47,145 bases of DNA, from NCBI GenBank assembly GCA_012719355.1, contig JAAYAM010000091.1, positions 1-47,145 of the forward strand, written 5' to 3'. The position numbers and the translations under genes were made by a program. The notes below the pieces were generated by a model that was not told the DNA's origin, ran no database searches, and saw nothing but the letters and a program-made list of their open reading frames with translations. The DNA is from Acidobacteriota bacterium. GTDB taxonomy: Bacteria; Acidobacteriota; UBA6911. Below, in pieces: positions 6,689 through 9,013 of this stretch (within the stretch, counting starts at the first letter, position 1; each line of letters opens with the position of its first letter).

Positions 6689-8044
6689 CTAGTGTTTGAT
6701 CTTGGCGAACACCTCTTCTGCATCCTGCTCGAACGTCGGGCAGCGATCGGCAGTGTGGCATTTGATGCAGAGCTTGATGTCCGGTTTTGGAGTCGGGATC
6801 GGTTTCATCTCGGCAAGATGTTCTTTGGCGAAACCGTGACAGGACTCGCACTGGACGTTGACCAGTTCGAGTTGCTGCTGCTTCATTGAGAAGCCTTCCG
6901 GCTGTTCAAAACGTGTCGTATGGCATGCCAGGCATTTCGGATCGAACTGTTTCGATTTGTCGACAAGCGTCTGATACGCGTGCGCGTGAGCTGTCGTATG
7001 CCATGTCTTCACCTGACCGGCGTGGCATGGCTCGCACGCGCTCACTCTCAGGGCAACGTCGGCCAGTGCAGGCTTGCTTTCTCCCCCGCCGCCATAGATC
7101 TCGGCGATTTCTTCGTTGTACTGCGAAATCATCGCCTTGATGTCTGCATTGTCCGCGATGGAGTCATCAAATGGAACCAGCTTGTTCTGAGCCGTCTTGC
7201 TGCCGTCGAGCAGGACTTCAAGGATGCCCAGATGCTGACCTTTTTCCCCTGCCTGAACGATCAGGGTGTCTTCAGCTTCGAACGGATCGGCTGTCTTCTG
7301 CTTGTCATGACCGCCGACCACGAGATCGATTCCTTCGACGCGGCGCGCTATCACCCAGTCGCGGTTCGTTCCCTGGTGGGTAAGGACGATGACGTAGTCA
7401 ACCTTGCCTGCCAACTCTTTCAGAATCGAATCTGCCGCCTCGAGCGGATCCTGTACGCTGGCGGCTCCGTTGGTGATTTCGCTGACTCTGGAGGTCATTT
7501 CGGAGGTGTCTCCGATTACGCTCAGGATAGCCACGTTCTTGTCGTTGACCTTCTTGGTTACGTAGCGCTGGAAAATGTGGGCGCCGTTTTCATCCACCAA
7601 ATTTGCAGAGATGAATGGGAAGCCGTGTTTCTTCTCCAGTTCCTTGAGATAAGGAATTCCAAGGACCAGGTCGAGGTCGCCGACGTTGACGGCGTCAATT
7701 CCGACGTGCTTATAGATCTGTACGATCAGTTCCGCCTTCAGACGGGCCGACTGCTGAACTGATTCAGGGATCTCCTCGTCTTCGTTGAGCAGGTCTCCCG
7801 AGTCTACAATCACCAGTCCCTGATTCCGATACTGTTCGAGATAAGTGGCCTTTTTGTACAGCCCGCCGAGCTGTACCCCTGTCTCCATTCAGCCACAGGG
7901 CTCCGTGTACCCCATCACATTGCTGCTGTAAGCGACGGTGATTTTCGTGCCGTCGGCCGCGCGCGACGATTCCGTCGGCAACCCTATCGAGAGAAGGGCT
8001 GCTATGCTCACGAACAAGAAAGCAAAAACAAATACTCTTTTCAT
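6689..8044 (-). CDS. Probable selenoprotein: 5'-nucleotidase-like metallophosphatase fused to tetrahaem cytochrome c
   Basis: A 451-residue exported protein if the in-frame TGA at 7889-7891 is read as selenocysteine (Sec52). The ATG at 8044 has GGAGG at 6 nt and opens a signal peptide (residues 1-30). The text then runs to TEPCG, the TGA, and METGVQLGGLYKKAT. Related proteins, as I recall them, have PCGC followed by a GGL stretch, so Sec replaces Cys. Residues 75-280 resemble a 5'-nucleotidase-type phosphoesterase (DSGD 81-84, SANL, LTHQG, GGHD 244-247), but GNHE is GDLD at 122-125, so activity may be changed. Four haem sites CxxCH lie at 337, 371, 399 and 426. Likely periplasmic redox role. 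The alternative is a nonsense-mutated gene whose 399-codon remainder lacks a signal peptide. The SECIS-like hairpin and the Cys position favour Sec. Confidence 0.75.
7856..7876 (-). promoter_or_regulatory. Bacterial SECIS-like hairpin
   Basis: On the coding (minus) strand a perfect 7-bp stem GTACAGC / GCTGTAC encloses the loop TCGGCGG. It begins 12 nt after the TGA and its loop begins 19 nt after it. This is within the 16-37 nt window known for bacterial SECIS elements, which SelB recognises. The loop carries guanines near its tip, as expected. A further C-G and a U-G pair could extend the stem, leaving GGC at the apex. It lies inside the coding region, as bacterial SECIS elements do. Confidence 0.7.
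7877..7900 (-). repeat. Hairpin with the UGA in its loop
   Basis: On the coding strand CCCTGT (7895-7900) pairs perfectly with ACAGGG (7877-7882), and the TGA codon sits in the 12-nt loop. This stem abuts the SECIS-like stem with no gap, so the two could stack. A ribosome reaching the UGA would have melted it. Confidence 0.5.
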
Positions 8045-8122
8045 CCTGATCCTCCAGAGGGAATCACCCGGTCAGGACATCGGGTCCCTCATTTTCCCTG
8101 TAACCAAACTGAAAGCGCGGCT

Positions 8123-8151: not shown

Positions 8152-8248
8152 CAGAATTCCTGGACAGGAAAGGATACCTTCTAAACATTGCGCATCCTGA
8201 TGGGGTATGATATTTTTATCGACTTTATACTTGTCGAAGGAAGGTACC

Positions 8249-9013
8249 GTGGGCACAACGAAGCTTACCCGAAAACAAATACTCGCAGAAGATCCGTTTC
8301 ATGCTGCAATAATCCGTCTTCTGGAATTCTTCAGCCGGAACAGGAGACTGATCTCGGTGGCGGTGGCTGTTGCAATCGTCCTTATAGTCGGCGGCTATTT
8401 CGGGCTCAAGTACCTGGGCAAGAGAGAAACTGCGGCTCAGGGACAACTGGCGAAAGCGATGAGCTTCTATCATGGTGCGGTGGATCCTGAGGCAACCGAT
8501 GATCCGTTCAGCAAAGGTGCCGTTCCGACATTCAAGAGCGATGCTGACAAATACAGGGCCGCGGCAAAGGAGTTTTCGGATATAGCTTCCGGATGGGGGT
8601 TCGACAAGGTATCGATAGTGGCGAAGTACTATCTCGGACTCTGCCAGCTTCAGCTTGGTGACAAGCAGGAAGCGGCAGCGAATCTGCAGTCTGTGGCCAA
8701 CAACTCCAGGCAGCGCACGATCGGGTTCCTGGCCAAGAAGGTACTGGCGGCCCATTATCTCGAGGAGGGGAATCACGCGAATGCGCAGGACATTCTCCAG
8801 GGCATGATTAAGGACCCGCAATGCGATCTTCCGAAAGAGGATCTTGCGATACAGCTTTCCCAGGCCCTGGCCGCTCAGGGAAAACACGATGAAGCCGTCA
8901 AAGTGCTGAGAGACGCCAGCACCGAGGGTGCGGAATTCAGTACACTGAAACAACGGCTGGTTACGGAACTCGACAGGCTGCAGAAGGCGTCCGGGACCGG
9001 GCGGCAGCCATAA
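8249..9013 (+). CDS. Membrane-anchored TPR-like protein (YfgM-type)
   Basis: A 254-residue protein with a short basic cytoplasmic N-terminus, one transmembrane helix (about residues 36-56, VAVAVAIVLIVGGYFGL) and a periplasmic part made of helical pairs resembling tetratricopeptide repeats (for example KYYLGLCQLQLGDKQEAAANL and AQALAAQGKHDEAVKVL-like helices). It resembles the YfgM/TPR_21 group, which in E. coli assists secreted-protein folding at the translocon. I chose the GTG at 8249 because GAAGGAAGG lies 5 nt before it; an ATG at 8207 has no such site. It stands alone, divergent from the selenoprotein gene, and is followed by the yceD promoter. The fold is likely; the function is only a family guess. 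Confidence 0.72.
   Translation: MGTTKLTRKQILAEDPFHAAIIRLLEFFSRNRRLISVAVAVAIVLIVGGYFGLKYLGKRETAAQGQLAKAMSFYHGAVDPEATDDPFSKGAVPTFKSDADKYRAAAKEFSDIASGWGFDKVSIVAKYYLGLCQLQLGDKQEAAANLQSVANNSRQRTIGFLAKKVLAAHYLEEGNHANAQDILQGMIKDPQCDLPKEDLAIQLSQALAAQGKHDEAVKVLRDASTEGAEFSTLKQRLVTELDRLQKASGTGRQP

Follow-up and report, generated by a model that had tools for sequence, protein, structure and literature searches.

The minus-strand locus examined here raises the question of whether a TGA triplet lying within the reading frame of a phosphoesterase-cytochrome fusion protein ends translation or encodes selenocysteine, and, in the latter case, to which family the protein belongs and what it might do. The window, that is, the whole stretch of DNA that was analysed, comprises 47,145 nucleotides of contig JAAYAM010000091.1 from an Acidobacteriota bacterium (assembly GCA_012719355.1). 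In agreement with the original prediction, the frame that starts at ATG 8044 and ends at a TAG terminator (position 6689) is open except at positions 7889–7891, its sole in-frame TGA, and a Shine-Dalgarno-like GGAGG is located 6 nt upstream of the ATG. When the TGA is translated as an amino acid, a PCG-U motif occupies residues 49–52 of the resulting 451-aa protein, and the four haem sites that had been anticipated are found as CxxCH motifs at residues 337, 371, 399 and 426. The signal peptide region is situated upstream of the TGA, which supports the earlier claim that export depends on read-through. Standard annotation of the gene would yield a truncated call in which the signal peptide and the selenocysteine site are both lost, and read-through corrects it. 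The features of the locus are summarized in Table 1.

Table 1. Predicted features of the selenoprotein gene and its surroundings, in window coordinates.
Feature	Positions	Strand	Basis or remark
Selenoprotein gene, complete	6689..8044	(-)	451 aa including Sec52, TAG stop
UGA codon read as selenocysteine, Sec52, motif PCG-U	7889..7891	(-)	TGA/Cys conservation
SECIS-type hairpin GUACAGCUC-GGC-GGGCUGUAC	7856..7876	(-)	GGC triloop 21 nt past the UGA
Signal peptide region, N-terminal, residues 1 to about 31	7952..8044	(-)	Sequence and model helix 3–18; cleavage inferred
UshA/5'-nucleotidase-fold metallophosphoesterase domain, about residues 32–319, metal ligands degenerate	7088..7951	(-)	Profile and structure matches
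Tetrahaem cytochrome c554-like domain, C-terminal, about residues 337–451, four CxxCH	6692..7036	(-)	PF13435 5.4e-15; NF041198 profile 363–518
Shine-Dalgarno-like GGAGG	8051..8055	(-)	6 nt before ATG 8044

In every one of the ten genus genomes, an in-frame TGA occupies the PCG-x column; the nine proteins besides that of the window are 57–70% identical to it. The phylum was scanned at E 1e-12, and in 21 more distant Acidobacteriota relatives the column holds TGA (14 sequences) or a Cys codon (7 sequences) and nothing else; the genus branch is 21–30% identical to these other aligned members. Of the 31 aligned relatives, 24 therefore have Sec in the column and the remaining 7 have Cys, as expected from the Sec/Cys exchange and the recurrence of the TGA in related genomes that had been proposed for this site. 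Cys50 and Gly51 are invariant, and the conserved core consists of G45, C50-G51-U/C52, G60-G61, D81, G83 and N148. The source genome is fragmented into 377 contigs, a circumstance in which the TGA could represent a sequencing or assembly error, or the scar of a decayed pseudogene. However, ten independent genomes share the triplet, it also occurs in many further families of the phylum, and the frame bears no other damage; the independent genomes rule this explanation out, and we consider it to have virtually no chance of being correct.

The same alignment bears on the possibility that the TGA is a true stop and that the 399-codon ORF beginning at ATG 7888 encodes a separate, cytoplasmic protein. 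An ATG does follow the TGA immediately in the window, but it is kept in only two of the ten genus genomes, being replaced by GTG in two and by an alanine codon in six, and no Shine-Dalgarno sequence precedes it. Moreover, G45, C50 and G51, all encoded upstream of the TGA, are invariant across the 31 relatives, and haem attachment needs export, at odds with a cytoplasmic product of the downstream ORF. Given the unconserved start and the invariant residues upstream of the TGA, a separate ORF was ruled out as very improbable.

The selenocysteine machinery that the original prediction called for (selA, selB, selC and selD) was found complete in the genome of the window, which contains a tRNA-Sec with anticodon UCA together with SelB (398.5 bits vs a cut-off of 242), SelA (555 bits vs 268) and SelD (366 bits vs 125). 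Across the genus, SelB is encoded in all ten genomes and a strong tRNA-Sec match was obtained in nine. Among genomes carrying the Cys form, one (G020) gave no SelB match at E 1e-60, and the others tested do have SelB. A general reassignment, by which the genome would read every TGA as an amino acid, could also account for read-through in the selenoprotein gene. Nevertheless, the genes for a response regulator, YceD, ETF-alpha and SpeA in the window end in TGA, and the full Sec machinery is present; with ordinary genes using TGA as a normal terminator, reassignment was discarded as having next to no likelihood. The SelD gene of this genome (L052, G000:C126, about 1440–2430) has an in-frame TGA of its own, within the context SASG-U-ASK, so that SelD is probably a selenoprotein as well.

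Downstream of the UGA, the ten genus genes share a hairpin of the form (A/G)CAGCUC-GG(C/A)-GGGCUGU, whose triloop is located 21 nt after the UGA and whose first base lies 14 nt after it (12 nt in two genes with a 9-bp stem). The stem codons, specifying Gln-Leu-Gly-Gly-Leu, are CAG, CTC, GGC/GGA, GGG and CTG in all ten genes, the loop base alone varying. When runs of four- or six-fold degenerate invariant codons were compared within the gene among the genus genomes, this run was the most constrained, since only one of the 56 runs, the stem itself, reaches its value. Applying a uniform rule to Sec and Cys genes, namely a triloop starting with GG and closed by at least 5 pairs, we detected the hairpin in 21/24 Sec genes vs 2/7 Cys genes (Fisher p 0.006, the sequences being related and the counts not independent), compared with 1.6% in background windows of 45 nt. 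Across the phylum several stem pairs covary, among them pair 2 (U-G, C-G, G-C and A-U) and pair 5 (A-U, G-C, U-G and C-G). The folding energy of the whole stretch, assessed with synonymous-codon shuffles, did not distinguish the Sec genes from the Cys genes; it is the particular form of the hairpin, its position and its covariation that carry the signal. A hairpin just 3' of the UGA with a G in its apical loop, as observed here, is what characterizes a putative SECIS element, and we infer that it would be bound by SelB.

Under the same rule, the GG-triloop hairpin is missing in three of the 24 Sec genes (L071, L079 and L027). Within the 45 nt after the TGA, L071 and L079 contain a different hairpin, CUGGGA-GGUCU-UCCCAG, closer to the UGA, so that the element may have been remodelled in their branch.

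Regarding the identity of the protein, the window sequence matches the NCBIfam profile NF041198 (UshA_like_PCGU, 'UshA-like (seleno)protein') with 348.8 bits and an E value of 4.8e-104, above the curated cut-off of 275 bits. Both halves of the profile are matched, positions 4–273 (UshA-like) and 363–518 (cytochrome part), and since the cytochrome part alone matches the latter segment, the fused build already belongs to the known family. The window protein thus has in common with NF041198 the UshA-like plus cytochrome build and the PCG-U motif, and differs from it in length (451 aa vs 519 profile positions), about positions 274–348 being unmatched. The PCG-U/CxU motif appears as PCG-TGA in the window, and all 31 aligned sequences have Sec or Cys in it.

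The 2008 selenoproteome of the Global Ocean Sampling survey included a COG0737 UshA-like CxU entry (PMC2398784), and the UshA-like CxU selenoprotein family is also included in two reviews (PMC9312934 and PMC13188914), the latter of which ties it to NF041198. As in the present set, the Global Ocean Sampling proteins have Sec in a CxU motif, and that survey tallied further homologues alongside the Sec forms; the passages of it considered here mention neither a cytochrome domain nor the loss of metal ligands (PMC2398784), whereas both features are found in this case. A second family, NF049981 (UshA-like selenoprotein family 2), likewise comprises UshA-like selenoproteins but has a CxxU rather than a CxU motif (PMC13188914), and its profile gave 33 bits with the window protein, under the cut-off of 140. 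Taken together, the profile match, the 2008 survey and the reviews place the protein in a known selenoprotein family rather than a new one, and we are highly confident, on the basis of its sequence, that the window gene encodes an exported member of the UshA-like PCG-U family NF041198. Its UGA would be decoded by SelB with tRNA-Sec under the direction of the downstream hairpin, and the ribosome would pass from the signal peptide into the 5'-nucleotidase-fold domain and then into the tetrahaem cytochrome. The original prediction of a probable new selenoprotein, in a family for which none had been described, did not hold up in this respect. The family is documented here across Acidobacteriota, in its Sec and Cys forms both. 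The present analysis adds that the phosphoesterase metal ligands have been largely lost across the set while Cys50-Gly51-Sec52 is invariant.

The predicted structure of the window protein has a mean pLDDT of 75.7, with most blocks within residues 31–310 above 80 and lower values in the cytochrome part and in the loop around residues 51–60. It matches the fold of the 5'-nucleotidase 3ivd (Z 34.3, rmsd 2.5, 292 residues aligned) and that of SoxB (Z about 31). The sequence is also homologous to SoxB, UshA, CD73 and 3ivd; the SoxB thiosulfohydrolase profile TIGR04486 scored 82.8 bits, under its cut-off of 550. The C-terminal haem domain matches Nitrosomonas cytochrome c554 (PF13435), from which it differs in being fused to a UshA-like domain.

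The ligand positions were located in an alignment between the family profile and nucleotidases of solved structure. Only part of the dinuclear metal ligand set DxH, GD, GNH(E/D), H, GHxH is kept in the window protein: motif I DxH is replaced by N42/M44, motif III GNH(E/D) by GDLD (D123, L124) and the second His of GHxH by K248. By contrast, SoxB and the 5'-nucleotidases keep their dinuclear metal site. D84, H223 and H246 are retained, here and in most if not all members of the genus, whose proteins may therefore still bind metal in part. These three residues and the 5'-nucleotidase fold also speak for a selenoprotein that is still an active metal-dependent phosphatase of the 5'-nucleotidase type, in which Sec would act as a metal ligand or play a structural role. 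However, this would have to be reconciled with the replacement of the motif I Asp and His, of the motif III Asn-His pair and of the second GHxH His, and with the ligand columns, nearly all of which vary across the 31 relatives, most of them freely, so that we regard an active phosphatase as unlikely.

We propose instead that the UshA-like PCG-U family may consist of pseudo-phosphoesterases whose metal centre is gone and whose Cys-Gly-Sec site would exchange electrons with the fused tetrahaem cytochrome, a reading of the sequences to which we assign about an even chance. With its metal ligands largely lost, the phosphoesterase domain would no longer hydrolyse phosphate esters; the Cys-Gly-Sec pair would constitute the active site, carrying out thiol/selenol redox chemistry in the periplasm and trading electrons with the four haems in either direction. 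We surmise that the substrate could be a small compound of sulfur or selenium, or a disulfide. The loss of metal ligands beside an invariant Cys-Gly-Sec thus provides a testable redox hypothesis for a family whose biochemical role appears undescribed in the literature searched and, if true, the protein would define a new type of selenium-dependent oxidoreductase acting in the periplasm.

The selenoprotein gene is solitary and divergent from a TPR gene (8207–9013), which is followed by the genes for YceD, PlsX, ETF beta/alpha and a 7TM-HD protein. The TPR/YceD/PlsX/ETF order beside it is syntenic in seven of the eight relatives compared; these syntenic genes look like housekeeping genes, and the neighbourhood in the eight relatives gave no pointer to the substrate.

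Haem motifs are absent from the same frame in L065–L067, L069, L071, L079 and L082, in which the Sec/Cys domain is present, and the electron partner in these relatives may consequently be a separate protein. Similarly, L027 (G005:C26:58027-58632), from another genus of the same taxonomic family, contains PCG-TGA with no in-frame haem motifs after the TGA. The genome of the window also encodes a short stand-alone tetrahaem-type cytochrome (L036, G000:C257:29874-30221) in a 156-aa open frame, which shows strong similarity to the C-terminal half of NF041198 (119.7 bits) and has counterparts in most genus genomes (L031–L035, L037, L038 and L044).
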